Below are positions 1 to 46,881 of a stretch of DNA of 64,000 nt, in pieces. A program made the translations under genes and the position numbers. The stretch spans positions 9,609,933-9,673,932 of the forward strand of contig CM067349.1 in assembly GCA_034190875.2 (NCBI GenBank), given 5' to 3'. The notes beneath the pieces are model-generated. The model was given only the letters and a program-made list of their open reading frames with translations, searched no databases and was not told the DNA's origin. The DNA is from Urechis unicinctus. Its lineage: Eukaryota; Annelida; Polychaeta; Xenopneusta; Urechidae. Numbering within the stretch: position 1 is the first letter of the stretch; the number at the start of each line of letters is the position of its first letter.

Positions 1-79
1 CGTCACGCACGCCTAACTGGCGTTTCATGTTATCGCCTATCGCCCAGTGTTATCTACCGCTAAAACACCGCCAACTTAC

Positions 80-461
80 CGCGGACACAGCCCTGTTTGC
101 TGGTGAGGTACGACTTGAGTTCGGTTCCGCACGGGGGTCGCTGTGGAAAAAGTCCACTGTGTACAGTACCCTCACAGCTCACTCTCCCACTGCACAGTCC
201 GTCCATGATCGACAACACATCCACGTGACATCCCAATCTCCCCAAATCCTCCTTCACACACTTCCCTACAGCCAGTCTCCCAAACATAGCTTCGTGCAGC
301 AATATAACACTGTCTGTTCCGCATTGTATGTGGAACTTTTCTCCGTCACAATATTCCTCTACAGCCCTCGAGAGCGGACCAGTGTGTGTACCGTGTATAG
401 TCAATCGGACACACATGATCAGGAAGACACACAATAAATGATTCCTGAACAGACTTTCCAT
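80..461 (-). CDS. V1: leader + SUEL lectin first exon
   Basis: I start at the ATG at 461 because it opens a hydrophobic leader (HLLCVFLIMC); an in-frame ATG at 533 is an alternative. The lectin domain runs from EYCDGE to GCVRG. The usual YGR triplet is FGR here (AMFGRLAVGKCV). The last third reads TVHSGLF then PPCG. The donor GTAAGT follows base 80 in phase 1. The upstream GAGGCTC element is at 567-573, about 110 bases before the ATG. Confidence 0.83.
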
Positions 462-825
462 TACCACATATATCCAGCAGCCAACTGCTAGCACTCTGTC
501 GATACTATGATGACACAGACTGGTATGAACCACAAATAAACATCCAAGATAGAATTGAGATTTGGTGAGGCTCCCAACCAGTCATCCAGAAATTACACCC
601 ATTTACTTAGTTTGAGACTGAACCAAGTGTGCAGCAATCTTTCAAACGTTTGTTAATGAATGCATGATTTCTAACACCAGCAATGATGTTAATAAATCAA
701 GATAAGTCTCCGTCCAAACTCTTCAAGTGGAATATAAATGCAAATTAACGCTAATACTACTACCCTAACCACTCAGCAACGCTCGACCAAGATTCCGCTC
801 TAAGACCAAAGAGTTTAGTCCTTAC

Positions 826-1193
826 CTGGTTGACATTGATACGATGCCTCTAGGTACATACGTCTGTCGCCGCACGGGGGCGCTACGTCAAACACCCCGC
901 TATGCACGACCAGACGACACTCACGTTGACCGGAACACGTCTGATCGATAACCCACGTGACGTCTACGTGACAGCCAAGTTTACCGAGATCCTCACCGAC
1001 ACACTTTCCTAACTTCATTCTCCCGTAGCGGGCAGATGACATCACAATAACTCGGCCGGCCTCACAGCGTCCAGTAAAAGATTCTCCTTCACAATGCTCA
1101 GATACTTCCTCTAATGCTAAACGCTCCAAAGGAAACTACCGTAATAGCTGTACAAATCACTGTTAAGAAGAATTTATCCAAAGCAGATAACAT
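826..1193 (-). pseudogene. V2: leader and lectin domain in different frames
   Basis: A leader opens at ATG 1193 (MLSALDKFFLTVICTAITVV), but its frame hits a stop just where the lectin domain begins. The domain (HCEGESF, ARYGRMKLGKCV, VVHSGVFDVAPPCG, CQPG) is in the next frame, which has a stop just upstream at 1136-1138. One base gained or lost near 1100-1130 explains it. The donor after 826 is intact. The element is at 1308-1314. This is either an inactive exon or a one-base sequence error. Confidence 0.6.
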
Positions 1194-1401
1194 GATGACA
1201 GCAGGCCTCTCTAAATGTGAATTCTACAAACTCCACCCACTGTACCGCAATCAAAACTAAAATTAAAACCCAAACCGACCGCATAATATTCAAATTAGTC
1301 AAGTTAGTGAGGCTCCCAATGATAAGAGCCATTACTCACCAAATAAACAACCATTCAGGAGCCATTCCGAGACAAAACACCTGGAAAGTTGTGAAATATA
1401 C

Positions 1402-1747
1402 CTGCGATACATTGATAATCCAGTGAAAGATAACTCCTCGACTCCCCACAGGGAGCGCTGGCGTCGAACAGTCCGCTAAACACGGGAATCTCACAGCTTT
1501 GTCGTCCACTACATCTCGCATCCATCGTCGCTACAACATCGGCGTTACACCCCAACTTGCCGTGATCTTCTAACACACACCGGCCTAACTCCATACGGCC
1601 ATATAGGGCTGACTTAACCCATAAAACTGATGTCCCAGCGCAGTCGACATTGACAGTCTCCCCATCACAATAGCTATATGATATGCCATTTGTAACACGA
1701 AGATGCACGGTAGTTGATATAAAAAGAACAAATGTTCTGAAATCCAT
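1402..1747 (-). CDS. V3: leader + SUEL lectin first exon
   Basis: Start ATG 1747 gives leader MDFRTFVLFISTTVHL; ATG 1780 is also in frame. The domain reads SYCDGE, ALYGRMELGRCVLED, LGCNADV, then VFSGLFDASAPCGE and CIAG. The donor GTATAT follows 1402. The element is at 1874-1880 and an octamer-like ATTTGCAT lies between it and the ATG at 1850-1857. Confidence 0.85.
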
Positions 1748-2049
1748 CCTTATTTCATGAAGAATCGGACAGTATAGCATTTCTTCAGGTATACTACGGC
1801 CATCTTAGAGCCACCTACTGGGTTTTGGCTTACATTATCGGCAAACTTCATTTGCATAACCCTAACTCACGGCGAGGCTCCCGATGGGAAGGACCGTCAG
1901 TACAGACGAAATACTGTTTTTGGTCGCTGATTTGTCGGCCCAAAACTGATTTACGATCGCATTTACACAGCGGGCAAATGTGGTCGGGACACTGCGCGAA
2001 TACAAACGCCGCTCTCGTACTGCCGCCATACTGGGTGTTCAGAACCTAC

Positions 2050-2400
2050 CTTCTACACACAGATACTGGGCCTCCAGGTACACCTTCAGTTCGCCACACA
2101 CCTCCACCTGTCCAAACAAGCCGCTATGGACCACTGCCTCACACCTCCCCTTCCCGCCACACAGCGCGTCCATGGCGCTGATGACGTCACGCTGACAACC
2201 CAGTCTCCCGTGGTCCTGCTTGACACACCTGCCTAGGTTCATCCGCCCATACTGAGCTGTCCTCATCAGTATAACCTCACCTGACGGGCACTGGGCCGTT
2301 AACTGGTGCCCTTCACAGTACTCTCCGACGCTGCAATGGGGCCAACCAAGCGCGAGAGTGCAATGCACGCATATACAAGTAAATGCCTAACTTCTGGCAT
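2050..2400 (-). pseudogene. V4: leader and lectin domain out of frame
   Basis: The likely leader starts at ATG 2400 (MPEVRHLLVYACIALSRLVG) and runs to SE, where the next codons should read YCEG. An extra AG (GAGAGTAC where GAGTAC is expected) throws the frame. The lectin domain itself is open: EYCEGHQL, AQYGRMNLGRCV, VVHSGLFGQVEVCGE, CVEG. The donor follows 2050. The element at 2581-2587 has a weaker second half (CTAAACGG). A different ATG at 2552 opens an unrelated hydrophobic frame. Confidence 0.58.
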
Positions 2401-2826
2401 TTTAGACATATCACAGGAACAAATGTAGTCCATTTGATGCAAATGATGTACTCCAATATAAGATCTAACTCACTAACAGCTGAGTGATAACGGAAGCACA
2501 ATATACAACCAAGACACGCGAATAAGATAATGTAATGCATATTCAATATCATTACAGTTATATATTAGGATTGTTGGTGTGAGGCTCTAAACGGTACGGG
2601 GACATCTGTCCTATAGATCACTTTCCGAACTAATCTGAAATGTTGTGTGTTCATAATCGCATTAAAATTTGGACATGCGCTCCGATGGGAATACTAATAT
2701 ATAACACACAGACTTAATCAATAACTGAAAATATTGAGAGCAAATGACAACGATTTGTGTTCATTTATAAAAATTGAAATGGAAGAATGACTGGAATGTG
2801 ACATTTAAAACCCGATTTCCACGCAC

Positions 2827-3169
2827 CTGCTACACATCGTGACGTTATATCCAGGTAGACTTTCAGCTCATCACAAGGCACCTCCACATCAAACAAACCT
2901 GAGTGGACAACAGCATCACATCGGTGTCTACCTGAGCACAGTCCGTCAGCTATTCCAATCACATCCATCTGACAGCCCAGGTAACCCCTGTCCACCGTCA
3001 CACACCGTCCGCGCACCATTCGGCCGTACTTAGCTTCTTCCATCAAAACAACGTATCCAGAAGGACAATCGAACTCAAGTCTCTCCCCGTCACAAAACTC
3101 CACCGAGTTCACGGGAGATGCTAGAACGAAGCAAAGTGATATAGTCAGCGCTATTTGACACCAACACAT
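2827..3169 (-). CDS. V5: leader + SUEL lectin first exon
   Basis: ATG 3169 opens MCWCQIALTISLCFVLASPV. The domain has EFCDGE, AKYGRMVRGRCV, LGCQMDV, VVHSGLFDVEVPCDE and CVAG. The donor GTGCGT follows 2827. The element is at 3284-3290. V5 is the most distal intact exon of the left unit; beyond it lies the 3' flank of unit A. Confidence 0.87.
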
Positions 3170-3290
3170 GTTGTCCGTTTTAAGCTTTGATGTGCCAAAC
3201 TAGACTGGCGATCCCATTCTCTTTCGTGCTTACTTGAAACTGCATTATTTATGAGTTGTTATATGTTAAGTATATATCAGCGCGAGGCTC

Positions 3291-4575
3291 TCGACAAGTG
3301 GATCTGGGATATCAGTATAAATAGCGCTTAAGTACAGGTGATTTATAGAATTTTCAATACCATTTGTCGATGAATCTTTATATATTAGCTTATGAATATA
3401 ATATTCGCATTAAGGCATTATTGTATAAATTCTGATAAATCATGATTCAATAATGGATCGTTTATTGCAGACGTGATTTATAAGTGGTTTGTGTAATGGT
3501 CAGGACAGACTCATATATATGCAAATAATGATTTATATCGGATGATGTCAAACAATATTTAAGAAATTGTGAGCACTTATGTCATAATTTAGGAATACCA
3601 GAAAAACCCATTCGATAACACGGTGTTGACATTCAAGTAACCGATTATAAATTCCCGTAAGTAATATGTGCATGATTATAGTAATGGCCAGCTCGCGGTG
3701 TATCCTCATTAACGGCACTAAGTGATACCCTCTCGATGGAATGATCTATTTCAGTCTGACCATATGTGAAATTGCTCAACGATAAAGGCAACAACTGCTG
3801 GGTAATTATGCAACCAGAAATCATCCTTATCTGTGACAAACTTAGCTCGAAGTTGACGACACACTTTGAAACAATATTCCTGGGACGTAATGCTGGTAAG
3901 AACCCGGCCCAGAGGCCTGGTCGACATGACATGAATTACCAAATCAATACTTCACCTCCCATCACTGATCGTTGATACTTCATCCATTCTTAATAAACAT
4001 CAGGAATTATGTCAATAATGATATCAAATGCTTTGGTTGGACAAAATGAATTGATTACGTAACTGTGGTTGTTTTATGCTCCACTAGCCAGGCTTCTGTG
4101 TATAAATCTAGCATATATTTATAGTATAATTCAGAAGATATTCCCAGGCTTAAGCACACACCACTTAATAAGTAATATTCTTTCCTAAAAAAATCATGTA
4201 ATGCAGACACACCTTAGATTTCTGAATTTGGATTAGCTTCCAATCTAATCTCGTGATCAACATTCACACTTGATAAGCTACACCAATAATGGATAAAAAC
4301 TCAGTTTACACAACAAACTTCACTTCAAGCAATTGCGGTTTGTTCTCTGCTACATTCAGATCATAGGAACATATTATATCACATGACAAAAGAACACATG
4401 CATATATATGCTTAAATCAAACATATAAAGAGTTAATCACAAATACACTTAAACAATACACATCAATATATATATATATATTATACATATGGACAGTTTC
4501 TAAAAGGACGCTCTAAAAACAATTGCAGTAGATCAATCATACGTTATGCCATACAAAAGCTAGAAAAGGAAGCAA
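3291..4575. other. Spacer between left unit and unit A; 3' flank of unit A
   Basis: The stretch is AT-rich with no lectin, CUB or sushi coding sequence on either strand, and short open frames around 3.65-3.98 kb look random. On the minus strand it follows the unit A tail exon, so it should hold the unit A 3' untranslated region. The first AATAAA I see on that strand is at 3461-3466, which is far away. The true polyadenylation site cannot be assigned. Confidence 0.5.
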
Positions 4576-4583
4576 ACCCCTGT

Positions 4584-4795
4584 CACTGGGGCCTGACGAC
4601 TATAAGCGTCTTGTACTGGCCAGACTCCGGGGGATCACTGGGGCCTGACGACTATAAGCGTCTTGTACTGGCCAGACTCCGGGGGATCACTGGGGCCTGA
4701 CGACTAGAAGTGTCTTGTACTGGCCAGACTCCGGGGGATCACTGGGGCCTGACGACTATAAGTGTCTTGTACTGGCCAGACTCCGGGGGCAACAT
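4584..4795 (-). repeat. 52-bp tandem repeat, four copies, covering the end of the unit A tail exon
   Basis: Copies start at 4584, 4636, 4688 and 4740 with an exact 52-bp spacing and very few differences. The rightmost copy is the real end of the coding exon (codons for SGQYKTLIVVRPQ and the stop). The other three lie beyond the stop. Unit B has a single copy, so the amplification is specific to unit A and probably recent. Confidence 0.9.
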
Positions 4796-5063
4796 CGTAT
4801 TGTTGTACATGAGACTCTGGTTAAGATTGTTCCTATAAGGCAGCGTGACAGCTGTGGCCATGTTGTTAGGCACGTTGCTAGGGTTAGCAGGTGCGTTGCC
4901 AGGCGTAAAGCAGAAGTCATAAAGAGCGTCCTCTGTTTCATCGCGGGGAGCTCCGCCCGGGTAGGAGGGCATCATGTATTCGGAATCTGGCCGGGAACCA
5001 GAGCCCTTAGGCAGCTTGGGGTATGTTGATTTCATCTTGGCTATTTGAGCCTCCATGTTTTTC
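4739..5063 (-). CDS. C5-A: cytoplasmic tail exon of unit A
   Basis: This exon follows the membrane span and starts with RKNMEAQIAKMK; it ends at the stop at 4739-4741. The tail is about 107 residues and carries tyrosines in short motifs: SEYMMPSYP (YxxP-like), ALYDF, LPYRNN and LMYNNT (both YxN, the GRB2-SH2 pattern), and GQYKTLIV (YxxL followed by hydrophobics, ITIM-like but with G at -2). Asparagine and proline are common. From SEYMMPSYP to the stop the protein is the same as C5-B. A role in phosphotyrosine signalling is inferred from these motifs. Confidence 0.87.
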
Positions 5064-5236
5064 CTGTTGGTTGTGGAAAAGAATCACATATTATCCTAAG
5101 ATCAATATAGACAATTATTAAACAAATTTGTGTGGGATAATATATCTTAGTAATCAGCTATACAAAACAACACACAAAAATATGTATACATTGTTTAGAG
5201 AATTGTGAAACATGAAACTGTGTTACGCGAACGTAC

Positions 5237-5318
5237 CGTCGCCAGCAGACAATACCCACGGTGACTATAGCAAGACAGGCCACGATACTGCCTGCCACGA
5301 TCAACGTCATCACCACAT
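5237..5318 (-). CDS. C4-A: transmembrane exon of unit A
   Basis: This 82-nt exon encodes DVVMTLIVAGSIVACLAIVT then VGIVCWRR. It is a single hydrophobic span with a basic stop-transfer end (WRR), as in type I receptors. The acceptor follows TTGCAG and the donor is GTACG. It enters in phase 1 and leaves in phase 2. A cysteine sits near the inner face (IVCW), where palmitoylation is possible. Confidence 0.9.
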
Positions 5319-5522
5319 CTGCAATCACCAGAAGGCCTCAGTCACTGCTGAATTCTGCCACATCTTACACTGCTAGCATGTATCATTGCCTGACATTGCC
5401 ATTCAAACGATACGTATACCAAACTATAATCCCTTATAACATCGCCCACCTCGCAAACATATCATAGTTCGCTTGTTGAAATAAGAGCTATAGTTAATCA
5501 CAAATGACATTTGTTCGTTATA

Positions 5523-5611
5523 TAAGATTAACCTTGACAAGACAATGATTAACCTTGACAAGACAATGATTAACCGTGACAAGACAATGATTAACCTTGA
5601 CAAGACAAAGA
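5523..5611. repeat. 21-bp tandem repeat, about four copies, in the C4-C3 intron of unit A
   Basis: The unit is TTAACCTTGACAAGACAATGA, repeated with one or two substitutions. It ends a few bases from the donor of exon C3-A and is not present in unit B. Confidence 0.85.
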
Positions 5612-5615
5612 TTAC

Positions 5616-5675
5616 CATCTGGAATCCAGGGCTCTTCTTTTTCGGCCCCTTTAACAGATGACTTTTGCTGCATAC
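5616..5675 (-). CDS. C3-A: juxtamembrane linker exon of unit A
   Basis: This 60-nt exon encodes GMQQKSSVKGAEKEEPWIPD, a charged stalk between the sushi-like domain and the membrane span. It is phase 1 at both ends. Only the EEPWxP/EEPFLP core is shared with C3-B. No domain is recognised. Confidence 0.8.
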
Positions 5676-5972
5676 CTGCTGAAAAGGAACGACACCAAAC
5701 AAATCAATACAGCAACAAATTACATGGTTAGCAATGTGAGGTCAACAAGTCTGAGAATTAAAAAACACGCTTTCGGTAATGCTTGAACACCTTAAACTGA
5801 TGAAGCATATCAAGAAATGACTGAGTATCTGGTCTATCATTCAGTTACACGATTTAGCCTGCTATTAAGAATATGAAGTGCTTAAAATTTAAGGGCAATA
5901 AATTGGTATGGGCAAAGCATATTGGTGCCTATAGAATGTAATTGCTTAATCATCGATTATACTAAAGTTTAC

Positions 5973-6119
5973 CTGCCGAGCAGTTACCGACCACGCCCAC
6001 CCACGTGTTATCCACACAACGCAGGTGCCAGGTTTGACGAGAATGGTCGCAGCCTATTGTACTCTCATCCCCGTCTCGACTGACAGAGCCGAACTTTGGC
6101 GACGCAAGGTCAGGACAAC
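5973..6119 (-). CDS. C2-A: short sushi/CCP-like exon of unit A
   Basis: The 147-nt exon encodes about 49 residues from SCPDLASPKFGSV to GNCSAG. It has four cysteines in the order C-C-C-C, and W residues in TWHLRC and NTWVGVVGNC, like a small complement-control (sushi) module; the family call is made from this pattern. It enters and leaves in phase 1. C2-B is clearly homologous (CPNLAAPKHGWV). Confidence 0.82.
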
Positions 6120-6235
6120 CTATGACTAGATGTGAAAACCAACGCTACTTTTCTTAGTTTGCATACAGAGAGTAAGATTAAGCGAACTAAAAATGGTTTT
6201 AAAATGATTGATTAATGGAAATTAAGAATATTTAC

Positions 6236-6604
6236 TTTCAAACTTTATCATGAAGTGGGGGTTGTCCACGCCGGTGTTCCATTCTATCTGAAGCTCGTTT
6301 GAGTTTGATGTCATCAACTCTCGTTCGCGACCTTGACCTCCACAAATCTGCGTTCTCTGCCTCGTCTTCGACTCTATAATATCACCATAATGCACGCAAC
6401 CAGACCATGCATTGCCTGTGTTCGGACGGAAGTCGATCAACCCAGCTTTAATCAGCTGTCCTGGAGACGCATGAACTTTCATGGAATGGGGAGGTTGGTC
6501 GATGCAGGACAGCGCCATGATGTCCTTGCCGAGAAGATAGACGGGCGAGCGAGTGAGACTAAGAGAACGGTCAGGCGAGTGGCAGACGGGCGACGCGTCC
6601 AGAA
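6236..6604 (-). CDS. C1-A: CUB-like constant exon of unit A
   Basis: The 369-nt exon starts at VLDASPVCHSPDRSLSL in phase 1, immediately joinable to any V exon. It runs through GLIDFRPNTGN, YGDIIES, QICGGQGRE, SNSNELQIEW and HFMIKFES. The late pattern ICGG - SNxLxIxW - HFxIKFES resembles the end of CUB domains (CG - S.N.L.v.F.S - GF.lrY), so I call it CUB-like with moderate confidence. The acceptor is TGTACAG. An ATG in the leader-like sequence upstream of the acceptor is intronic. Confidence 0.78.
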
Positions 6605-6699
6605 CTGTACACAGACAGGGACAGGCAAACAGTAAAATAGCGAAATATAGAACATAAATAGTACACCTTGAGTTTACATCCAAACCCCGAAGCCTCTAC

Positions 6700-7051
6700 C
6701 TGCCACACACGTAAACTCGACCTCCAGATACACCTGCAGTTCTGAGCACGGCACGTCCACCTTAAATATGCCCCTGTTTACATTAGCTACGTCACACGTC
6801 CGTCTACCGGAGCATCTCTGATCCATGATGGCCGTGACGTCCGCGTGACAGCCCAGGTAGCCCAGGTCGACCTTGACACAGCGACCTAGCTCCATACGGC
6901 CGTAAAGAGCCCGGCGGATGACCACCACCTCGTCATGTCCACACTGTAGGGCCAGTTTCGCCCCATCGCAATATTCCTTTGTCTCGCTCCGAACTTTTCG
7001 ATAGAGTAACACCCAGAATATCCATGTGATGAATATAGAAACTGTCACCAT
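6700..7051 (-). CDS. V6: leader + SUEL lectin first exon, nearest to C1-A
   Basis: ATG 7051 opens MVTVSIFITWIFWVLLYRKV. The domain reads EYCDGAKLALQCGHDEVVVI, ALYGRMELGRCVKVD, LGCHADV, NVNRGIFKVDVPCSE, CVAG. It is nearly the same protein as V19, the exon next to C1 in unit B. The donor GTAGAG follows 6700; only ~95 bp of intron separates it from C1-A. The element is at 7167-7173. Confidence 0.9.
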
Positions 7052-7381
7052 AGTCCTTTCGGAGGCTGACCAAGTCTATAGCTTACAGAACCAGTCGACT
7101 CTCGCGATATAAATACCTCACTTATATACCCCATATCATTGGCATTTTTCAATGAGCCACAATCGTGAGGCTCCCTATGGTTCTGCTATAACAGACTCAA
7201 ATGGAGTTACCATTGATGGATTCAAATTCATACTACATGTTTGATCGTCCAGTCTGTGTATTAAGTTAGGATCAGCTGTTTGACGCATGCGTGTCTCGAG
7301 TCGATGTGATCACATGTACCTTTGCGTGTGACAAAAGCAATTAATTCTTCCTACCATAGAAGCTCATACAACCTGTCTTAC

Positions 7382-7742
7382 CTGGGACGCATGTGTGGCT
7401 GAGTTCTAGGTGCATACTCAACTCGGAACACGGCAGATCCAAATCAAACAAGCCTCTATTCACACTCTCCACGCTACACTGACTCCTGCCACTACAGAGG
7501 TCATCGAGTACACTTGTCACATCCTCTTGACACCCCAGTAAACCGTAATCGACCTTGACACATTTACCTAGTCGTATTCTCCCAAACACGGCCTTTTTCA
7601 CATACATCACTTGTCCGGATTGACATGACAACTCCATGCTCTCTCCGTCACAGTATTCCACAGTGAGCGTGTCGATGTATGCACCGTAACATCGGGCAGA
7701 GATAAGTCCAACGCTAAACACCATCACCCACCATAATTCCAT
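7382..7742 (-). CDS. V7: leader + SUEL lectin first exon
   Basis: ATG 7742 opens MELWWVMVFSVGLISARCYG. The domain has EYCDGE, AVFGRIRLGKCVKVDYG, LGCQEDV, SVNRGLFDLDLPCSELSMHL and CVPG. FGR replaces YGR, as in V8, V9, V21 and V22. The donor GTAAGA follows 7382. The element is at 7880-7886. Confidence 0.9.
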
Positions 7743-8007
7743 GATGTTCTATTTCCTAAACGCCCCGGGAACACACAACCTACAACCGTATTCATAGACA
7801 AAAGTTTCAATGACTTAGTTGCTGGGTCACTAGTATTTATAACTTCCCCGCGATGCATTGCAAATGTAGGGAAAACAGTGAGGCTCCCAATGGATACTAC
7901 AAGCTAGTTCAATTGCCGATTTGAAATTAGTCGACACCTCGACTTAAATCGTCCGCTGGTGAATGGTAAGGATGCCTCAGTGAAACCCGCTATTTATTAC
8001 AACTCAC

Positions 8008-8404
8008 CTGGAACACAAAGGTAAGTCAGATCAAGGTGTAGACTCATCTCGCTGCACGGCAGATTCACCTCAAACAATCCACGATGCAGATGACCTAGGT
8101 CACAGGTTCTACGCCCGCTACACAACCTGTCCATGTGTGCTGTGACGTCACTCTGACAGCCCAGAGAACCCAGATCAGACTTCACACACTTCCCTAGTTT
8201 GATCCTACCAAACTGGGCTGATCTTATCAGAATAACGTTCTCTCCTGGGCATTGAAAATGAAATCTTTCTCCCGTGCAATATTCCTGCTCCATGGGTACT
8301 TCATTCGAATAAACTTGATTGAAGAAGGCTATGATAAAAGATAGCGCTTTTAATTGCAATAAACTAAGCTTATCGAGTTGCCGGTCAGCAGTTGCACAAT
8401 TCAT
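8008..8404 (-). CDS. V8: leader + SUEL lectin first exon
   Basis: The frame is open from ATG 8479, but ATG 8404 places the hydrophobic leader (LSLLQLKALSFIIAFF) closer to the N-terminus; either may be used. The domain (EYCTGERFHFQCPGENVILI, AQFGRIKLGKCV, HLHRGLFEVNLPCSEMSLHL, CVPG) is nearly identical to V9 while the leaders are unrelated. The donor follows 8008. The element is at 8543-8549. Confidence 0.87.
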
Positions 8405-8763
8405 GCTTAGATCAGCGAGATGACCGCCCACAGCGTGGTTAGTTCTCAACCTCACGTAAATGACGATTACTTTGTACATGCTGTGACCACTGCAAATCCA
8501 CAGGGAGATTTAATGAATATGAATGAAGACCAGCAAAGCAATGAGGCTCCCCATGTTTCGCGTAGACACAAAGCCGAAATATGCATTTCATAGCGATTGA
8601 CTGGAAAACTGCAATAGCAATGAAACCTCAAATTAATTACAGTTTTGCTTCATACGACATTTCTAAAGAGATCCCACTCAGTAAGATTGATGGCATGATT
8701 TTCTGCCTCCGGGTGTATGTCTAATACCATCAAAATAGTACAATTCAACAATGCTCAACCCAC

Positions 8764-9109
8764 CTGAAACACACATGTAAGACAGATCCAGGTGTAAACT
8801 CATCTCGCTGCACGGCAGATTCACCTCAAACAATCCACGATGCAGATGACCTAGGTCACAAGTACCACGCCCGCTACACAACCTGTCCATGTGTGCTGTG
8901 ACGTCACTCTGACAGCCCAGAGAACCCAGATCAGACTTCACACACTTCCCTAGTTTGATCCTACCAAACTGGGCTGATCTTATCAGAATAACGTTCTCTC
9001 CTGGGCATTGAAAATGAAATCTTTCTCCATCGCAATATTCCTGTCTCAACTGTACTTCCTCTGATGACCTTACTACTGTTGTAGCCATGATAACAAACAC
9101 GGTTATCAT
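8764..9109 (-). CDS. V9: leader + SUEL lectin first exon, near-copy of V8
   Basis: ATG 9109 opens MITVFVIMATTVVRSSEE; an upstream in-frame ATG lies at 9160. From EYCDGERFHFQC to NLPCSEMSLHLDL the protein differs from V8 at very few positions, and the DNA is also nearly identical. Leader, tail of the exon and intron differ. The donor GTGGGT follows 8764. The element is at 9289-9295. Confidence 0.89.
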
Positions 9110-9295
9110 CCATAACCCACCCGAACAGTCACGTCGGTGTACGACAGCAAAACAATACATGATGTATCAAACACGGTCAGGACATACAGTTGTGACCAGC
9201 GAGGCCTTATATCCATGCCGAGTACTGCTATGTAACAGCATCAAATCGCGATTTCTGAATATTTATTTAATTAGCATATAGGTAGGGTGAGGCTC

Positions 9296-11002: not shown

Positions 11003-11242
11003 GGTCCTAGTAATGCAAATATTCCATATATGATACGTGGAGGACGGGTGCTCACAATTCAAGTCACTTGTTGAGAATATCGCGTACTTAATACCCTGAC
11101 CCACCTCAAACATGCATAATCACTAAACAAACCTTAGTGAGGCTCTTAACGAGTGGTACTCAAAGGATCACCAAAATAAAAGCATCTGAAATCTTAGTAC
11201 TTTACGAATCTACAAAAGAATATGATATAATCCTGACCTCAC

Positions 11243-36738: not shown

Positions 36739-36889
36739 GCTTAGTCCACAACCAATTACTCCTGGGTGTGCAAGTCTCATGGAATGTTCAAATCCACTGC
36801 ATCATTATCGTAACAGACTATTGAAAACTACACCTATAATATAAATGAATATTCAATTAATCATCACTGTCGACACAACGGAGAGGCTC

Positions 36890-37497: not shown

Positions 37498-37849
37498 CTT
37501 GAATACACAAATATTCCGCCGCCATATAAGCTCTAAGACCACGTGGACACGTATTTCCTTCCCGGTAAAACTTCTTATGCGATACTTCGAGTTCACAAGA
37601 GACGCGTCCAGAACATAAGCCGTCTAAGGTCAAGGTCACATCGGCCTGACATCCTAATGATCCATAATCGACGTCAACACAGTCTCCCAGCGCCATACGA
37701 CCGTACACCGCCTGTGTTATTAATACACCTTCTCCAGGAGCACACCGCGCTGTAAATACATCTCCCTCACAGTAATACGTAGACGCCCCGAGTTCTCCGT
37801 ACGCCAGTAATGTAACCAGGACCCAAATGTGAAAAACTCTATCCTCCAT
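37498..37849 (-). CDS. V41: leader + SUEL lectin first exon
   Basis: ATG 37849 opens MEDRVFHIWVLVTLLAYGEL. The domain has YYCEGDVFTARCAPGEGVLI, AVYGRMALGDCVDVDYG, LGCQADV, EVSHKKFYREGNTCPRGLRAYM, CIQG. V41, V42 and V43 form one subtype (GDVFTARC and FY/FF-x-EGNxCP). The donor GTGAGT follows 37498. The element is at 37988-37994. Confidence 0.9.
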
Positions 37850-38428
37850 TGAAGGTTTGGGAAGATTTGTCCAAATTGAAACATGAAGAAAATCGCATGT
37901 ACTAGAACTGAGAAGTCTGACCACAACATTTGATTGAACAGCGTTTATATATCATCAACACCTCATGAATATTACGCTGCTAGAATTGAGGCTCCCAATA
38001 CACTGCCGGTTAAAAACTCCCATTTGTTCATTTTGCTTTTTCAGCTTATTGTCAAGGCTAATTCGTGAGCACGGACAGATGTAGAAAAAATGTGCACAGA
38101 CACGAATGTGAGCTCATGGACTGAAATATCCTGTATTTAATCAGCCAGCAAGATACACTGTATAATGGAAGGTAGCATCACTTAGTAAGACCGGGCCGCA
38201 ACTCCCATTAGGAAACCTATATAGGTATACTTGGTCCATCGGTTACCCAATTTCGGATAGAAGCGTGCCATTAACTATTTGAATTTTACCTTTCAACATC
38301 GCCACTAGCATTTACAGCGAAATCTCGCATATTAAAAAAGTGTATAGAAAGATTTATAGCATAGAAATATATTTCCCCGAGGCAGAGACATTGAGACATG
38401 CGAGTTATCCAACTTTCCATCAGCTCAC

Positions 38429-38780
38429 CTTGTTCACATGTGTATTCGGCCGCCATGTACGCCCTCAGCCCCACGGGGCACGAATTACCTTCCTGGTAAA
38501 ACCCTCTATGCAACACGTCGACCTCACAAGATGCGCGCCCAGAACAGAAACCGTCTAAGGTCAAGGTCACATCAGCCCGGCATCCCAATGACCCGTAGTC
38601 GGCCACAACACAGTCTCCCAGCGCCATCCGACCGTACACCGCCTGTGTAATTAATACACCTTCTCCAGGAGAGCACCGCGCTGTAAATACATCTCCCTCA
38701 CAGTAATTCATAGACGCCCCGAGTTCTCCGTACGCCAGTAATGACACCAGTGACCACACATATACACACATAGTCCCCAT
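38429..38780 (-). CDS. V42: leader + SUEL lectin first exon
   Basis: ATG 38780 opens MGTMCVYVWSLVSLLAYGEL; the frame is open to 38837. Leader end, first domain half and VTLTLDG are shared with V41; the later part reads DVLHRGFYQEGNSCPVGLRAY and CEQG. The donor GTGAGC follows 38429. The element is at 38908-38914. Confidence 0.9.
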
Positions 38781-39281
38781 CGTATCGTGATTCAGAAATA
38801 TCAGTCCTAACAACGTAGACTGGTTGTAGACATCCACATGTCGGTGATTCCTAATTCATTTCCTTCTAAAATTACAGACAACGAATACACAATAAGTTTG
38901 GAGCGGTGAGGCTCCCAACGAACATTTCAGGAACGACCATTTTAAGCATTTTGCCGAATTGGAGTATTTCTTTGAGGGAGGTTGGGGTTTGGGATATTCC
39001 TTTGATCAAGAGTACATGGACAACCACATAATGAAAAACATCAATATCACGTGACTGTGTTTAAGAAAACGGATCCTCAAAATACAACATGGAGTTTTAA
39101 AGCCACAATAACCAACTATGAGGGCCCCACACAAGGAAACATCGCATATGGCACACGCCCATCGCAGAGCAACAGCTGTCCATTATAGGATGAATCCTGA
39201 CGGGACGTGGCTACTTCCCGATGATTTATGCTAAATAAAAGGCATCTATTTTAGATCACAGTTGCAGTGATGACAACTTAC

Positions 39282-39633
39282 TTGTAACGCATGTGTACTC
39301 AGCTGCCATGTAAGCTCTCAACCCAACTGGACACGGGTTTCCTTCCAAGAAAAATTTCTTGTGAGAAACCTCAAGTTCACACGACGTCTGACCAGAACAG
39401 TAACCATCTAGGGTCAAGGTCACATCAGCCTGGCATCCCAATGAGCCATAATTGACAGGTACACACAGTCCGAGCTCCATACGGCCGTATATAGCCTGGG
39501 TTACCATCACACCTTCCCCGGGGGGACACCGCGCTGTAAATACATCACCTTCACAAAACTCTACGGCGACAATAAGTCCTATGTGCGTAATGACTTGCAG
39601 CAGCAAGATCATAAGTACATTTAAACCTCCCAT
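39282..39633 (-). CDS. V43: leader + SUEL lectin first exon
   Basis: ATG 39633 opens MGGLNVLMILLLQVITHIGL; the frame is open to 39687. The domain has EFCEGDVFTARCPPGEGVMV, AIYGRMELGLCVPVNYG, EVSHKKFFLEGNPCPVGLRAY, CVTS. As in V10, the last exon base is A, still phase 1. The donor GTAAGT follows 39282. The element is at 39770-39776 with TGAATATTCA at 39746-39755. Confidence 0.89.
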
Positions 39634-39871
39634 TGGCAATATACGTCTGATAGCCATGAGTACGGTATATGATTTGGGTAAATCCAACTATTGTTGGCAG
39701 GCTTCAGTAGTTTATCAACGCGTCAATTATATGCACACACTCTCGTGAATATTCAATAAGCTAGACTTTGAGGCTCCCAACGTGCAATTTAGAGTATGCC
39801 ATATTGTGATAATATCTACCCGGCGTTGAAATCACACTGAGGCAAGGCAGTTGCACAACGTGTACCTTTTT

Positions 39872-39928
39872 CGGTGGGTGGGTGGAAAGTGGGGGGAGTG
39901 GGGGGAGGGGGGTGTTTGGTTGGTGGAT
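39872..39928 (+). repeat. G-rich tract between V43 and V44
   Basis: Several runs of three to six G separated by one to four bases lie on the + strand, enough to form a G-quadruplex in principle. No function is shown. Confidence 0.6.
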
Positions 39929-40147
39929 TCAATCCAATTCATATTGAGTCGCGTGATATGAGGATTTCGCAATGACAACTTGTAACTCCCATTTGTCACT
40001 TGTGAGCATATTTTTGTAAATATGGGTAAATCACTGATGATTTGGTGTTCTTAATCACTAGAAGTTACAGTCGTAGTCATATTACTAAACAAAAACGGAA
40101 ACAAAATTAATGTGTCGAAAAAAAAAGCATTCGTGGCTGCAACTCAC

Positions 40148-40505
40148 CGGCAACGCACTGATGTGATGCCTCAAGATACACCTGCAGTTCGAAACACGGC
40201 ACGTCCACCTGGAAGACAGAGCGGTGTAATGCAGGTATATGACACACCTGTCTACCTGAACACACCTGGTCCATCTCATCAAGCACATCCACCTGACAGC
40301 CCAGGTAACCATGGTCTACCTGGACGCAGTCTCCCAGCTCCATCCGTCCGTACGTCGCTTTCATCATCACCATCATCCGCCCTGTACCGCAGTCGACGTG
40401 CAGGGGGTCGCCATCACAGTACGACACGGCGTTTATAACCACTAACGCCTCCATGGATAGTAGTAATGTTATAAACACGGGAAGAAATACTGTGATCTGT
40501 GCCAT
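40148..40505 (-). CDS. V44: leader + SUEL lectin first exon
   Basis: ATG 40505 opens MAQITVFLPVFITLLLSME; the frame is open to 40547. The domain has SYCDGDPLHVDCGTGRMMVM, ATYGRMELGDCVQVDHG, LGCQVDV, ALHRSVFQVDVPCFELQVYL, CVAG. The donor GTGAGT follows 40148. The element is at 40651-40657. Confidence 0.89.
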
Positions 40506-40950
40506 CGCTCGTAATGTACCAATAAGATCAATCGCGCAGCTAATCAACTGTCACAAGGTTCAACACCCTCGATACAACCAACCTTAGCGTACACCCGATG
40601 TTTGGGAGCTAGAATGTAATTCGTTATATTTTGTATTGTAAGGCTTTAGTGAGGCTCCCAACACGGGTACGCCGCATTGAGCCCAAATACGCCTCGCATG
40701 AAGCTAATTTGTGTAATTCAGTTACCTTTTCCAGAATTCCAAATCGAACCTTCGACTACCTAACTTTATATTTCATCGATTCAAAGAATGACAGAAGCAA
40801 CATCAGAAGCGATCGCACCTCTAACTCGCAGGGGACGGCTATTAGAACTATAAAGAATTTCTTGCCGGAGGAAACATGAATTCCGTGATATAAAGAACAC
40901 AACAGCCACCGCATGCCAGGTAAAGCTGGCCAATGATGCATCACTTTTAC

Positions 40951-41299
40951 CTCGTACACAGGTGTGTGTGACTTCCAGGTAGGCCTCCAGCTCGCGGGGA
41001 CAGCTCACCTGGACACGAAACACTCTCTTCTGGACGGTCACTGAGCAGGTGGGACGTCCTGAACAGAGCCTGTCCATATCACGCATGACATCCACCTGAC
41101 ATCCCAGAGAACCGTAGTCTTGTTTGACACACTCGCCCAGCGCCATCCTCCCGTACACGGCGCCCTCCATGAGCAACATCTCATCGGAGGCACACTGGAG
41201 GTCCAACGTGTCCTCATCACAATACTCACGCGCTAATATTCCATCTATTAATGCGATGAAACCGAGTAAAACCGCACCTACGTGCATCATGGCTTTCAT
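40951..41299 (-). CDS. V45: leader + SUEL lectin first exon, twin of V47
   Basis: ATG 41299 opens MKAMMHVGAVLLGFIALIDG; the frame is open to 41380 but the inner start matches V47. The domain has EYCDEDTLDLQCASDEMLLM, AVYGRMALGECVKQDYG, LGCQVDVMRDMDRLCSG, TVQKRVFRVQVSCPRELEAYL, CVRG. The donor GTAAAA follows 40951. The element is at 41388-41394 with ATGCAAAT at 41351-41358. Confidence 0.91.
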
Positions 41300-41387
41300 T
41301 ATACCTGATCTTCCTACCTCAGAGTTATATGGAATCAGAACCAAATAAATATGCAAATTGACAACTTCATGTCTTATCAAACTAAGT

Positions 41388-42250
41388 GAGGCTCTCGATG
41401 GGTCAGCACACTGTTAAGGTCAAAATATCAATTTGTATTTTCAACTCATGAACGAGGCCTCAAGATGATATTCATCAGAAGCCTCTCTTTTTATTAGTCT
41501 GCTACATGGCTATCATCATTGATTGAAATAGCTTACCAGTAAAATCCTACCACCATTCTAACTTCTTGCAATACCAATACCAATCAACCAGCCCCCTTTG
41601 GGAAACAAAGCATCGCATTTCCCGTCCTTTGGCCTCTAATCCACACCTCAGAGACAGAGCCACGAATTTCAACTAAATAAGGTATTTCGTGGGCACCAAC
41701 ATGAGTTTCCAAATGAAAGATCATTGCAATACAGCTAAAGCCGAACTTCGTGAGTTCTGCAGCCATATTGAATGACCCGGGAATCTTTATAACATCAGGG
41801 TGTAGTGCTTGGTGTTAGAGCCAATGGGCAATTACGACGGTGATAGATGGGGTTAATTATTCTTTCTCTTAATATACCTCTCTAAACACAAGTCGTTTCT
41901 TACAATCATACCCGAACCAAATAAGTTCCATAATCCGATCTACCACTAACATTTGGGCTTCTGCGTGATCATATAAATGGTTTTGAACGCTCAGAAATCT
42001 TAACCATAGCTGTTTGCTATCGTGTATAGTTAAAATGGGCATCAATTCGCCGATTGCATCGAGAGGATAACGTTCACAAGAGAAGAAATGATTGACTGCC
42101 GTCATTTCGCGTGAGACAAAAGAAACGAAACGTTATGATGTCAACCAAACAGCTACAACAGGCTCGCCAAACATTATGAATTAAAAAAACACAATAAAAA
42201 GTTTGGAAAATTGTAAATTGAGCGCGCGATATTAAGAAAATAGGATCGAA
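41388..42250. repeat. Spacer copy 1 of a two-exon tandem duplication
   Basis: The sequence from the V45 element toward V46 matches 44,494-45,370 in patches: the element plus TCAGCACACTGTT, GCAGCCATATTGAATGACC, GAGCCAATGGGCAATTACGA and TTGAGCGCGCGA occur in the same order in both. The block V45-spacer-V46 and the block V47-spacer-V48 are therefore copies with a period of about 3.1 kb. Confidence 0.85.
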
Positions 42251-42437
42251 CTAAAATGGAATATCGTCGAATAAAAACATCTTTACTTGAAATTTTTCTT
42301 CATAATACAACTAACAATCGGCACTACAAAAAGGAGAAAATGCAATTACACTTCTACAGGATGCTTGTTGATAAAGGTCGATTGTACTGTCCGATAGATT
42401 ACTTTGTTAAAACTATACGCCATGAAAGAGGCCATAC

Positions 42438-42774
42438 CGGGAATACAGGTGGAGCTTGCATCAAGGTGAAATCGAAGTTCGCTCGGGCAAGGCACATCAG
42501 CAGTAAATTCCTTGTTTTGCACTATCATTCTACAGAGCTGACGTCCTGAACAGAGCTTGTCCATATCACGCATGACATCCGCCTGACATCCCAGAGAACC
42601 GTAGTCTTGTTTGACACACTCGCCCAGCGCCATCCTCCCGTACACGGCGCCCTCCATGAGCAACACCTCATCGGAGGCACACTGGAGGTCCAACGTGTCC
42701 TCATCACAATACTCACGCGCTAATATTCCATCAATTAATGCGATTAAACAGAGTAAACCCGCACCTAAATTCAT
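42438..42774 (-). CDS. V46: leader + SUEL lectin first exon, twin of V48
   Basis: ATG 42774 opens MNLGAGLLCLIALIDGILAR; the frame is open to 42882. The first two thirds (EYCDEDTLDLQC to LCSGRQ) match V45, V47 and V48; the last third (LCRMIVQNKEFTADVPCP, CIPG) matches only V48. The donor GTATGG follows 42438. The element is at 42884-42890. Confidence 0.9.
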
Positions 42775-43330
42775 CGTGAACTTCACTGTATCTAAATAAG
42801 TTACAACTCTACATTGGCGGTGCGCAGAATCAGACTTATTTGCATATTCACGCACTTGTATTTTCATGTCTGTTGTTAACATTGAGGCTCTCCATGGGTG
42901 GGAATATCTCTTTGACCTATAAAAACAACTACACTATTAATGGATTTTTGGATTCGAACTGAATAATTTTCATTTATTGTGGAGCCACAACCATTTTATC
43001 TCGATTTTTAAACGAATTCCCACACCAAGAATCTGTGGATCGACTCTATCATATACAATAACAGTTACATCTATCACAATGGGCCATGGGAGACTCAACT
43101 TTTAACTTGCATCCATATGCTTGATTATCAATACAAGCAATAATAAGCAATAACACAGATCTAGTCAAGTTCATGAGTCATTCGGTGTGATCGTGAATGA
43201 AGTAACACATTGGAGTTGGAAGTCACGTTCAAACAGAAAATACATCAGGATGAATGAAATGACCAGATTCTATCCCATAACTTCTATTATGCATATAACA
43301 CAAGACCGTTAGTAACTTCCAGTTAGGAAG

Positions 43331-43450
43331 CTGCAACTGGGGCAACTGAGATCCAAAGCTGGGGCAACTGAGATCCAAAGCTGGGGCAACTGAGATCCAA
43401 AGCTGGGGCAACTGAGATCCAAAGCTGGGGCAACTGAGATCCAAAGCTGT
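43331..43450. repeat. 22-bp tandem repeat, five to six copies
   Basis: The unit is GGGGCAACTGAGATCCAAAG plus CT and lies in the V46-V47 spacer. Copies are nearly perfect, with one variant at the right end. No coding role is seen. Confidence 0.92.
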
Positions 43451-44057
43451 GGCAAGTGCGTGATTGCATGTCATGTCAAATGTACAGATAATGCCAGGAA
43501 ACGAATGAACATTTCAATACTTCCTCATCATCAGTTCCAGTGATAAAACATGAGAACATTATAAAAATCGCTGAGAGAATCCAACTTAGCGAGAATAAAT
43601 AAATAAAAACTGCTATTTGGGTGTGAAAAGCGATAGGGAACGTTATGATGGTAAAAACGCACTCCTTTTACTAGTAACGGTTGGAGATTTAACCCTCGGG
43701 GAAAGAGACTTTTGTAGATAAATCATGCTTCTCTTTATTTATCAATTGAGCTCTATGTTGTTTATCTGTGTCAATGAGAAGCTGTTTGCTTCACCGCTAA
43801 AACAAACTGTTTCGCCTTGAAGGTACATGTTTATAAAAGTTATATCTGAGATAAATATACGGTTGAGTTACAGTTCATTGGCCATGGTAATTTCTTTTAT
43901 TGTCGTTTTATGTGTATTATATCGTACAATAGAAACCGCTGGGCTATAGAAATCCATTAACTATAATATATAGCATGTCAATTCTCAACGTATTTTGGGA
44001 ATAACTGCTTACTGAATGGTTTTAGGCCAGACAAGGTAGCACATCGTATTGACTTAC

Positions 44058-44406
44058 CTGGGATACAGGTGTGGCTGGCTTCCAAATAAACTTCCAGTTC
44101 GCTGGGACAGGTCACTGCGGTGTGAAATACCTTCTCTAACACAGTTACTGAGCAGTGCTGACGTCCTGAACAGAGCCTGTCCATATCACGCATGACATCC
44201 GCTTGACATCCCAGAGAACCGTAGTCTTGTTTGACACACTCGCCCAGCGCCATCCTCCCGTACACGGCGCCCACCATGAGCAGCACCTCATCGGAGGCAC
44301 ACTGGAGGTCCAACGTGTCCTCATCACAATACTCACGCGCTAATATTCCATTTATTAATGCGATGAAACCGAGTAAAACCGCACCTACGTGCATCATGGC
44401 TTTCAT
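44058..44406 (-). CDS. V47: leader + SUEL lectin first exon, twin of V45
   Basis: ATG 44406 opens MKAMMHVGAVLLGFIALING. It equals V45 with few changes up to LCSGRQ; the last third is TVLEKVFHTAVTCPSELEVYL and CIPG. The donor GTAAGT follows 44058. The element is at 44494-44500 with TGAATATTCA at 44452-44461. Confidence 0.91.
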
Positions 44407-44493
44407 TATACCAGATATACCTACCTCAACGTAGTATGTATTCGAACCAAATGAATATTCAATTTCACAACTTGATGTCTTTTCATACCAAGT

Positions 44494-45370
44494 GAGGCTC
44501 TCGATGGGTCAGCACACTGTTTAGGTCCAAATACAAAGTTGAATTTTGAACTCATTATCAAGGCCTCAAGTTAATATGCATCTGAGGTTTCTCCTTTTAT
44601 TCGTCTACTACCTGACCATTATCATTAATTGAAATAGCATACAGGTAAAATCGTACCACCATTCTAAATTCTTGCAAACAATACCAATCACTATACCGCT
44701 TTGGGAAATACAGCATCGCGTTTCTCGTCCCTCAGTCTCCAATCCTTGTTTTAGAAATAGAGCCACGAATATCAAATAAATGAGGTATTTCGAGACCACC
44801 AATAGGAATTTTCCGGTGACTGAACATCGAAATGCAGCTAAAGCCGACCTTAGTAAGGTCTGCAGCCATATTGAATGACCAGGGAATCCTTTGTAACATC
44901 AGGGTGTAGTGATTGATGTAAGAGCCAATGGGCAATTACGACGGTGACAGATGGGGTTCATTAAGATGGATGGATATATCATCGTAACTTATCTCTTTCA
45001 ACACAAGTCTTTTTTTCTCCATCCCTGATTGTATGAAACAGATTCAATACATGATACGGTCAACCTCCCATATTTGGGCATCTGAGCCACCATATTACAT
45101 GGTTAAAAGCGCTCAGAAATATAAACAATAACTGGTTTTTTTATCATGCCCAGTCATCTCCGGCATCAATCCACAGATATCATCGAGAGGATGACATTCA
45201 CAAGACAAGAAATGAATGGGTACCGTCATTTCGTGGGAAACAGAGATAAACGATACGTTATGATGCCTATAAAACCACCGCAACATGCTCGCCGAACATT
45301 ATGAAATAAACACAAAATGAAAAGTTTCGAGAATTATGAATTGAGCGCGCGAGATTCGAACAGTGTGGCA
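44494..45370. repeat. Spacer copy 2 of the two-exon tandem duplication
   Basis: This is the counterpart of 41,388-42,250 (see that entry), with scattered substitutions and small indels, so the duplication is not very recent although the coding parts of the twins stay close. Confidence 0.85.
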
Positions 45371-45576
45371 GCAATAAGGTAGAATAGCCTTGAATGGCTG
45401 GTTCTTAATTTTTTAATTTGATTCTAAAATACCACTATCAATCGGTACTACACATGCGAACAATAAAGGATCACAAGCCATGATATTTTACGAGATACAT
45501 CTTGATAAATGTCCGCCTTTACTGCTACATGTAGATTCCTCTCTTATAACATAAGACTCCATTAAATGAACCATAC

Positions 45577-45919
45577 CTGGAATACAGGTGGCGCTTGCAT
45601 CGAGGTGAGCTTTCAGTTCGCTCGGGCAAGGTACATCAGCGGTGAATTCCTTGCTTCGTACTATCATTCTACAGAGCTGACGTCCTGAACAGAGCCTGTC
45701 CATATCACGCATGACATCCGCCTGACATCCCAGAGAACCGTAGTCTTGTTTGACACACTCGCCCAGCGCCATCCTCCCGTACACGGCGCCCTTCATGAGC
45801 AAAACCTCATCGGAGGCACACTGGAGGTCCAATGTGTTCTCATAGCAATACTCACGCGCTTCTGTTTTAGACATTAATACAGTTTGCATCACCAGTATTG
45901 TCATAATCAGACTGGTCAT
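45577..45919 (-). CDS. V48: leader + SUEL lectin first exon, distal end of unit B
   Basis: ATG 45919 opens MTSLIMTILVMQTVLMSKTE; ATG 45955 is in frame. The domain has EYCYENTLDLQCASDEVLLM, AVYGRMALGECVKQDYG, then CRMIVRSKEFTADVPCPSEL and CIPG. The donor GTATGG follows 45577. The element is at 46015-46021 and is the rightmost one of the array. Confidence 0.9.
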
Positions 45920-46881
45920 TTGGTTTATCACCGTCGATGTGCAGAACATCAACAACCGTCAATGGAGAACTTTCATAAATATATATTCTTGCATGTTTTC
46001 ACGTAGGGTTAAATGAGGCTCTTAATGGGTGGGGAACTTAGACTCTCCAAAATGGGACTTTAACCAATTAACACTGAGCTTAATAATTCATGGCTTCTAT
46101 TCATGAAATTATGCATCACGATTGTGTTTAGAGTGATTTATCCGTGATAGAATGTAAAAACAAATTATTGTCAAGTAATTAACAACTTACCAACCAAACA
46201 CGCGCTCAGCGCAGACCCTTGGAGGGTTGTATATAGGTGCGGTTTTGTCAGGAAAGTGGTGTCAACGATTAATAGTTTTGATTACATATATATTCAGTAT
46301 TATATATCTTCTTGGACTGTCATGTTCATTAATGAGATTTGTTCGCTATATCCAAAGAAAAACAACATGATCTCAATTGAGGTTAAGCCTGGCAGATATC
46401 GATATTGTCAGCGAAAAGGTAAAAAAGAGAAGTTTTGCTTGGTAGACTGAGGAAATTTGATTTTGTGCCACAACAAGTTTTTAATTGCGACAGCAATAAG
46501 CCCAGGAACAACAATTCTAAGACGCGCTCGTCATCATGCTGTTGTATCTCGTTATGACACTTTACAATTGAATCATAACGTATAAAATGAACTTTATGCT
46601 CTTGCTAGATAATGGTAATGGTGATATTGGAGTTAAACGTCACTTTCAACAACGAGATGATATCTCGACGGGGATGGATGCGGATGATTGTGATGCTTGG
46701 ACAACTGCCCTTAAGTGGCAGCGCCCACTTCGCACAAACCCGTTGCCCAGACCGGGCTGCGAAACCCACGCCACTAGGACGAAGGTCCAGCACTATACTG
46801 TTGAGCAACCGGGTCGGGTGCATCCCCTTTCAGAGATGGGACCGCCATTTGACGTGATCATCTGAGTCATGGTGAACTAGT

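Follow-up and report, generated by a model that had tools for sequence, protein, structure and literature searches.

How one receptor could be offered many alternative lectin heads is the question raised by a 64-kb stretch of the Urechis unicinctus genome (contig CM067349.1, here C8, positions 9609933-9673932; hereafter "the window", with w marking positions within it), in which 48 SUEL-lectin exons, all on the minus strand, stand in blocks of five (w80-3169), 13 (w6700-16791), and 30 (w20590-45904). We propose that this is very probably a variable-constant (V-C) receptor locus, in which each variable (V) exon would have a private promoter, encode a leader and a lectin domain, and be spliced to a shared set of constant exons, giving a receptor with one variable head. 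SUEL exons span 242 kb (C8:9413563-9655785) and the window covers one end only; the region annotated here (264 kb, in a genome of 1.19 Gb and 926 contigs) comprises the window and 200 kb on its low-coordinate side, and the SUEL profile was built from the locus itself. Within it, 119 V units reaching the 3' end of the domain fall into four arrays, referred to as A to D. Arrays A and B correspond to the window blocks of 30 and 13, and array C consists of the window block of five and 22 further V exons outside the window, three of which are frame-split, one truncated, and one more without an in-frame leader.

The V exons of the window share a uniform anatomy. A phase-1 GT donor stands at the identical place, two codons after the last cysteine, in 48/48, which confirms the first-pass annotation of this DNA in its claim of 48 same-strand lectin exons ending in one phase. 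Among the SUEL hits of the 264 kb that extend to the domain's 3' end, 132 of 134 keep this donor; the exceptions are one degenerate lectin of array D (9512694) and one truncated lectin of array C (9607449). An ATG followed by a hydrophobic leader lies in the same exon and in frame with the lectin in 41/48. The other seven are frame-broken, either by a frameshift inside the lectin (w33087-33368 and w36382-36657) or by a leader out of frame (lectin parts starting at w826, w2050, w22218, w28298, and w28884), and may be pseudogenes or assembly errors. Each of eight cysteine columns is conserved in 59 or 60 of the 60 distinct rows from A-C (broken rows dropped) and in 45 to 47 of the 47 from array D, while median identity between V lectins is 45% (A-C) and 42% (D). 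The Pfam scan covered four sequences (one V protein, the CUB-like and the sushi-like exons of constant set B, and the sushi-to-tail part of set A), and the V protein matched the SUEL domain PF02140 at 34.6 bits against a cut-off of 31.4. Among solved structures, the V lectin is best matched by 5h4s, a rhamnose-binding lectin (E 1e-13), and 8suf, a latrophilin-like protein (E 1e-4); the GDPC stretch of the solved rhamnose lectin is not conserved in the single V exon aligned. Genome-wide, 150 of 260 SUEL candidates were scored, so that further arrays elsewhere are possible, and all of those scored, window V exons included, lie above the PF02140 cut-off. Among the better Pfam scores are four same-strand SUEL exons within 6.6 kb at C13:71078619-71085173, possibly a multi-SUEL gene.

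Upstream of 67/69 V exons in arrays A-C we found the heptamer GAGCCTC, inside the consensus CACCCRTYGRGAGCCTCACT. Searching the 264 kb with a stricter pattern, T-N-R-R-GAGCCTC-R, gave 68 matches, a single one of them on the plus strand; of the 67 on the minus strand, 65 stand 167-336 nt ahead of an A-C lectin, another precedes the truncated C lectin, and the last is located elsewhere. After removal of upstreams sharing any 16-mer, GAGCCTC is still present in 44/46, as compared with at most 8/46 for the top 8-mer in 20 shuffles. In the window, GGAGCCTCA occurs 25 times, on the minus strand only, against 0.23 expected. Allowing up to one mismatch, 15 of the 19 whole-genome matches to an 18-letter consensus fall inside arrays A-C; at two mismatches the 464 genome matches (reversed control 55) are swamped by a dispersed repeat. 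Outside these arrays, GAGCCTC is found upstream of 1/50 array D units (800 nt searched) and of none of the 15 single-head genes described below (1,500 nt). An AT-rich, POU/octamer-like word lies within 70 nt after the element in 30/67 A-C upstreams (shuffles 5.5, standard deviation 2.2); the word list was made post hoc, and we treat this second site as a lead.

Downstream of the V exons lie the constant sets. Set A (w18523-20182) follows the block of 30 and set B (w4739-6604) the block of 13, both on the minus strand and both complete, with GT/AG at every junction. In each, exon 1 encodes a CUB-fold domain (A w19820-20182; B w6236-6604), exon 2 a four-cysteine, sushi-like module (A w19417-19569; B w5973-6125), and exon 3 a short acidic linker (A w19240-19299; B w5616-5675), all three in phase 1-1; exon 4 encodes a transmembrane segment in phase 1-2 (A w18964-19045; B w5237-5318), and exon 5 a cytoplasmic tail with the stop codon (A w18523-18841; B w4739-5063). 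Five-exon sets had been assigned earlier to two of the three window blocks. Both prove complete, and the third block is not set-less, as set C, at C8:9590410-9592492 and 17 kb outside the window, terminates array C. Joined in silico to the 41 intact V exons, set A gives 41/41 open products (431-457 residues) and set B likewise 41/41 (435-461 residues).

The first constant domain is, by prediction, a CUB fold. Its AlphaFold2 model, built with 19 CUB-exon relatives, has a predicted local distance difference test score (pLDDT) of 87.6, and most of its best Foldseek matches in the PDB are CUB domains, with a best E of 4e-3, none below 0.001, and a TM-score of about 0.5; the CUB-like exon of set B has no Pfam match. 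The second module has four invariant cysteines in 14 rows and is predicted to be a beta module (pLDDT 88.5). A sushi fold for it is backed neither by a Pfam match nor by any sushi domain recognised among the best 50 of 134 Foldseek matches. The earlier label "CUB-like" is thus supported by fold prediction, while "sushi-like", kept here as a name, goes back to the four cysteines. No immunoglobulin (Ig) or FNIII domains were found by Pfam in the four sequences scanned.

Close copies of the CUB exon number three in the whole genome, all at this locus and one in each of sets A, B, and C; a further 13 matches are weaker. Synonymous sites differ between the three sets by 46 to 79% in the CUB and transmembrane exons and by 25 to 58% in the sushi-like exons. 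In the tail, the last 81 residues are identical across the sets, and at the DNA level the final six steps of 36 nt along the tail exon have 94 to 100% identity, a pattern that may reflect gene conversion together with selection for one signalling end. The tail carries the tyrosine motifs EYMMP, ALYDF, YRNN, YNNT, and YKTL, some of which we take to resemble SH2 docking sites. It has three close genomic copies, one per set, in addition to fragments and one copy with 42% identity, which belongs to a distant single-head gene (C8:9572691-9575483) and retains EYMFP, DTEDALYDFCFTP, and YKTLIV. At w4586-4755 on the minus strand, the unit of about 52 bases that closes the set B tail exon (PPESGQYKTLIVVRPQ and the stop codon) is repeated in tandem after the stop, up to three more times. 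Within array C, at C8:9594035-9604500, a multi-V unit roughly 3.7 kb long is present in about three copies whose lectins match exactly or almost exactly, which suggests a recent amplification or an assembly duplicate.

Besides the arrays, 15 whole SUEL exons stand alone in the 264 kb, on both strands. In our reading of the annotation, these single-head genes have their own downstream exons in the same order as the constant sets: CUB-like in 13/15, sushi-like in 14/15, and transmembrane in 14/15, the SUEL exon at 9431199 having none of the three. They are of a split form, with an acceptor AG exactly 17 nt ahead of the first cysteine codon in 14/15 and a separate leader-exon candidate in 9/15, and place the same phase-1 donor ahead of their own CUB-like exon. 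Similar associations occur elsewhere. In one 10-kb stretch of a SUEL cluster at 47.7 Mb there are three SUEL exons, of which two are accompanied by CUB-like and sushi-like exons of their own and the third stands near the end of the stretch; at other places on C8, and on C9, single SUEL exons have weak CUB matches next to them. The single-head genes show what a V exon normally precedes, and they are the strongest indirect evidence for V-to-C splicing in the arrays. Beside one of them a run of N, which may be a gap, begins at about C8:9480930.

A second, differently built array, D, lies on the minus strand at C8:9512694-9564031, about 26 kb beyond set C. It has 50 V exons reaching the 3' end (two frame-split) and two truncated ones. 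Here leader and lectin appear to be split: an acceptor AG stands exactly 17 nt before the first cysteine codon in 46/48 whole lectins, a place that does not rank among the six commonest for AG in arrays A-C. A candidate for a leader exon of its own was found for 39/48 units, mostly across an intron of about 100-250 nt (27/50 under a stricter rule); a few of these candidates are doubtful, with long introns or weak donors. The donor is present in 49/50. Array D also has its own element, GTTAACANTT-N7-ACAGTGC, whose 37 exact matches in the 1.19-Gb genome all fall within array D, as compared with one match for the reversed control. By V unit, 49/50 have it with at most two mismatches in the 16 fixed letters (35 exactly; shuffles 4 to 7), 239-489 nt ahead of the lectin. 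A spacing control, in which the spacer was shortened by one base, has two genome matches, neither of them in array D, and upstream of the 15 single-head genes the best match has three mismatches. The CACAGTG within the element equals what we take to be the V(D)J signal heptamer; V(D)J-type recombination was set aside, given the distance of 239-489 nt from the lectin and the lack of a coding joint. Downstream of the array (C8:9505600-9512230) are two constant sets in tandem, each with CUB-like, sushi-like, transmembrane, and tyrosine-bearing tail exons; their tails are related, the second set lies at about C8:9505.6-9508.7 kb, and no SUEL exon was found between the two.

Taken as a mechanism, each V exon, encoding a signal peptide and one SUEL domain, would serve as one of many alternative first exons, transcribed from a private promoter that the element shared within its array marks. 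Transcription would start near the element of the chosen V exon and read on to the downstream constant set, where the phase-1 donor of the V exon would join the phase-1 acceptor of the CUB exon, the intervening V exons being skipped. The product would be a single-pass receptor with a variable, putatively sugar-binding lectin head, a constant CUB domain, the sushi-like module, the acidic linker, a transmembrane helix, and a tyrosine-bearing, putatively signalling tail. Exon anatomy, splice sites, phases, leaders, elements, open joins, conservation, and the exon order of the single-head genes can all be read directly from the DNA, and each array has a downstream constant set (two for D). The V-C layout proposed in the first-pass annotation is therefore strongly supported at the sequence level, by elements, leaders, donors, constant sets, and single-head genes alike. 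Its description as "combinatorial" is not supported, because there would be one head per protein and diversity would come by choice, not by combination. The immune, self/non-self, or cell-identity use suggested there is a putative one, and no positive selection was detected on the V exons (see below).

Several observations weigh against this V-C layout or lend it no help. Seven of the 48 window V exons are frame-broken, and the lectin exons of array D own both acceptors and donors, so that lectin-to-lectin splicing is possible there. TATA words after the A-C element occur in 13/67 upstreams against 8.9 in shuffles, which is no clear enrichment, and a TATA box at this place was dropped. Over the four arrays AATAAA occurs 20 times in sense and 86 times in antisense, yet six A-rich control words are equally biased (133 sense to 331 antisense), and because of this base skew the depletion of poly(A) signals was not used as evidence of read-through. 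Past the V donors, AATAAA/ATTAAA occurs 15 times against 22.8 in shuffles (A-C) and 4 times against 12.4 (D). It is nevertheless highly improbable that the V exons are separate small genes for secreted lectins, each read through its donor to a nearby stop with the constant exons unused. A stop does follow the donor at a median of 12 codons (A-C) or 25 codons (D), but the length of this read-through is erratic, up to 80 and 106 codons, while the donor itself is kept almost throughout, and the single-head neighbours place the same donor before a CUB-like exon of their own. That only the V exon nearest each constant set is live, the others being decaying copies, is scarcely credible: the frame-broken exons would fit such decay, whereas the median dN/dS (nonsynonymous to synonymous rate ratio) of 0.26, the near-complete retention of the cysteines in arrays A-C, and the kept element and donor do not.

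For array D, the phase 1-1 lectin exons might instead be spliced to one another into multi-lectin chains, given that both splice sites are present (acceptor 46/48, donor 49/50) and that chelicerate sDscam isoforms with varying Ig number are reported to arise through between-cassette splicing (PMC4835542). We consider such chains unlikely, as the private leader-exon candidates of 39/48 D units point to each unit being a start, and in the window arrays, where leader and lectin form one exon, they are impossible. The more serious alternative leaves the V-C layout in place and concerns its use, which would be fixed by tissue, stage, or challenge, in a UGT1A-like or inducible manner, and not random with one V exon per cell. 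We give this roughly an even chance: a shared element does not by itself imply random choice, and the octamer-like second site would fit ordinary regulated promoters, while the confinement of the elements to the arrays, with absence from 15/15 single-head genes, fits an array-specific device for choice. Random choice of a V exon in each cell is possible but doubtful, and use that is fixed by tissue or inducible has at least the same probability.

As for how the locus with its V-C arrays arose, in a tree of 127 lectins (93 columns, with many forks open) array D falls on one side of a branch found in 70% of bootstrap trees (support 65/91). Lectins of arrays A and B are interleaved (10 changes each), those of C stand nearly apart (2 changes), and 12/15 single-head lectins group together. 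V lineages are common to arrays A and B, among them that of the V exon next to each constant set, as would be expected if a V block had been duplicated together with its set. The split leader/lectin form is common to array D and the single-head genes and so looks ancestral, and arrays A-C would then be the product of one intron loss. Given the tree, the two elements, and the two exon forms, two array expansions are the simplest account: single-head genes at this locus probably gave rise to the layout on two occasions, with a fused leader in A, B, and C and a split one in D, and with a separate element each time. The V exons appear to be conserved, with a median pairwise dN/dS of 0.26 in A-C (53 close pairs) and 0.24 in D (6 pairs), and values of 0.41 and 0.37, respectively, by counting on the tree. 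No diversifying or positive selection was detected on the V exons by these crude parsimony counts, with 53 and 6 pairs of usable dS; the one site below 0.05 in each set is the codon before the split glycine codon at the donor, and none is claimed.

The V exons of the window are positioned as follows, all on the minus strand, with the position of the GAGCCTC element in brackets; "lectin part" marks those with the leader out of frame and "frameshift" those with a frameshift inside the lectin, for which the lectin part is likewise given. The block belonging to array C has V exons at w80-461 (w567-573), w826-1099 (lectin part; w1309-1315), w1402-1747 (w1874-1880), w2050-2323 (lectin part; w2581-2587), and w2827-3169 (w3284-3290). 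Array B starts with the V exon nearest to set B, w6700-7051 (w7167-7173), and continues with w7382-7724 (w7880-7886), w8008-8404 (w8543-8549), w8764-9109 (w9289-9295), w10630-10948 (w11139-11145), w11243-11579 (w11698-11704), w11902-12244 (w12395-12401), w12658-12991 (w13139-13145), w13404-13743 (w13871-13877), w14168-14513 (w14648-14654), w14863-15217 (w15352-15358), w15591-15945 (w16067-16073), and w16434-16791 (w16911-16917). In array A, the V exon nearest to set A is w20590-20953 (w21048-21054), followed by w21382-21733 (w21987-21993), w22218-22494 (lectin part; w22757-22763), w23060-23429 (w23582-23588), w24152-24512 (w24623-24629), w24892-25243 (w25350-25356), w25650-26001 (no exact GAGCCTC upstream), w26293-26662 (w26823-26829), w26993-27350 (w27468-27474), w27563-27911 (w28041-28047), w28298-28583 (lectin part; w28758-28764), w28884-29163 (lectin part; w29358-29364), w29526-29886 (w30000-30006), w30321-30669 (w30771-30777), w31066-31408 (w31505-31511), w31740-32088 (w32215-32221), w32396-32777 (w32894-32900), w33087-33368 (frameshift; w33540-33546), w34154-34517 (w34741-34747), w34901-35252 (w35444-35450), w35692-36046 (no exact GAGCCTC upstream), w36382-36657 (frameshift; w36883-36889), w37498-37849 (w37988-37994), w38429-38771 (w38908-38914), w39282-39612 (w39770-39776), w40148-40505 (w40651-40657), w40951-41287 (w41388-41394), w42438-42774 (w42884-42890), w44058-44394 (w44494-44500), and the most upstream one, w45577-45904 (w46015-46021).

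The remainder of the window holds minisatellite-like tandem repeats, open in several frames (w50573-50983, w52525-52973, and w62980-63295), zinc-finger-like open reading frames on the minus strand (w50967-52048), presumably resembling ZNF622/Rei1, and open reading frames on the plus strand (w59704-61311) that resemble pieces of a non-LTR retroelement reverse transcriptase. Elsewhere in the genome, a muscle-type myosin heavy chain locus (C6:25853004-25863511) has several matches to motor positions about 103-152, which suggests alternative exons. A muscle-myosin exon has its nearest match in PDB 2ec6, a scallop myosin, with human myosin-7 scoring almost as well. Searches of the genome for cox1 and for molluscan haemocyanin gave no match; since the haemocyanin search gave none in the controls either, its negative does not demonstrate absence.

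The V-C layout itself is known from clustered protocadherins, chelicerate sDscam, and UGT1A; its SUEL version may be new. UGT1A has about a dozen alternative first exons joined to shared 3' exons, and encodes an enzyme and not a lectin receptor, while sDscam is not known to have as many V units in one locus as the 119 found here. The SUEL/rhamnose-binding lectins, EVA-1, and the RBL domain of latrophilin belong to the same Pfam domain (PF02140) as the V exons, and are known as single genes with fixed SUEL domains. To our knowledge, none of these genes has a V-C array, and no SUEL V-C array was found among the matches listed in a search of titles and abstracts of the open PMC literature, with subscription papers and preprints outside its scope.

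Clustered protocadherins (alpha and gamma) have tandem V first exons, each with a promoter and an element, and one constant set per cluster; the element is conserved at a similar distance before the start codon and was later shown to bind CTCF (PMC7811963). The Urechis locus likewise has tandem V exons with a downstream constant set on the same strand and, before the V exons, a conserved element at a similar distance (67/69 in A-C; 49/50 in D with at most two mismatches). Unlike the protocadherins, to which it has no homology, it has one SUEL domain in place of six cadherin repeats, and its elements are known from their letters whereas CTCF binding is established there. The transmembrane segment lies in the constant part here but in the variable exon in protocadherins (PMC7811963). 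Chelicerate sDscam is also an invertebrate receptor, for which PMC4835542 describes promoter-preceded tandem 5' cassettes of two or four exons and constant exons with the transmembrane segment. Its layout is close to that of array D, with a two-exon cassette of leader and lectin, while the window arrays have one-exon units; it differs in its domains, which are Ig and FNIII there and a SUEL lectin, CUB, and sushi-like module here.

What the locus may mean for the animal can be put as a tentative proposal: out of about 119 lectin heads, a cell would pick one or a few by means of a promoter code private to the locus, and the head would be coupled to a constant signalling tail. This sugar-recognition counterpart of the clustered protocadherins would have been invented twice in adjacent places, with two unrelated promoter codes, and would provide the cells of an animal with differing glycan-sensing identities for immunity or cell recognition. 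If true, the V-C layout can evolve twice within 250 kb from single-head genes that still lie beside the arrays. The two unrelated, array-private elements offer a direct handle on what promoter choice needs, as they can be deleted, swapped, and used as bait, with the single-head neighbours as built-in controls. In the cadherin and Ig families, receptor diversity through choice among the promoters of tandem first exons is well documented; with lectin heads, the principle would reach glycan recognition as well.

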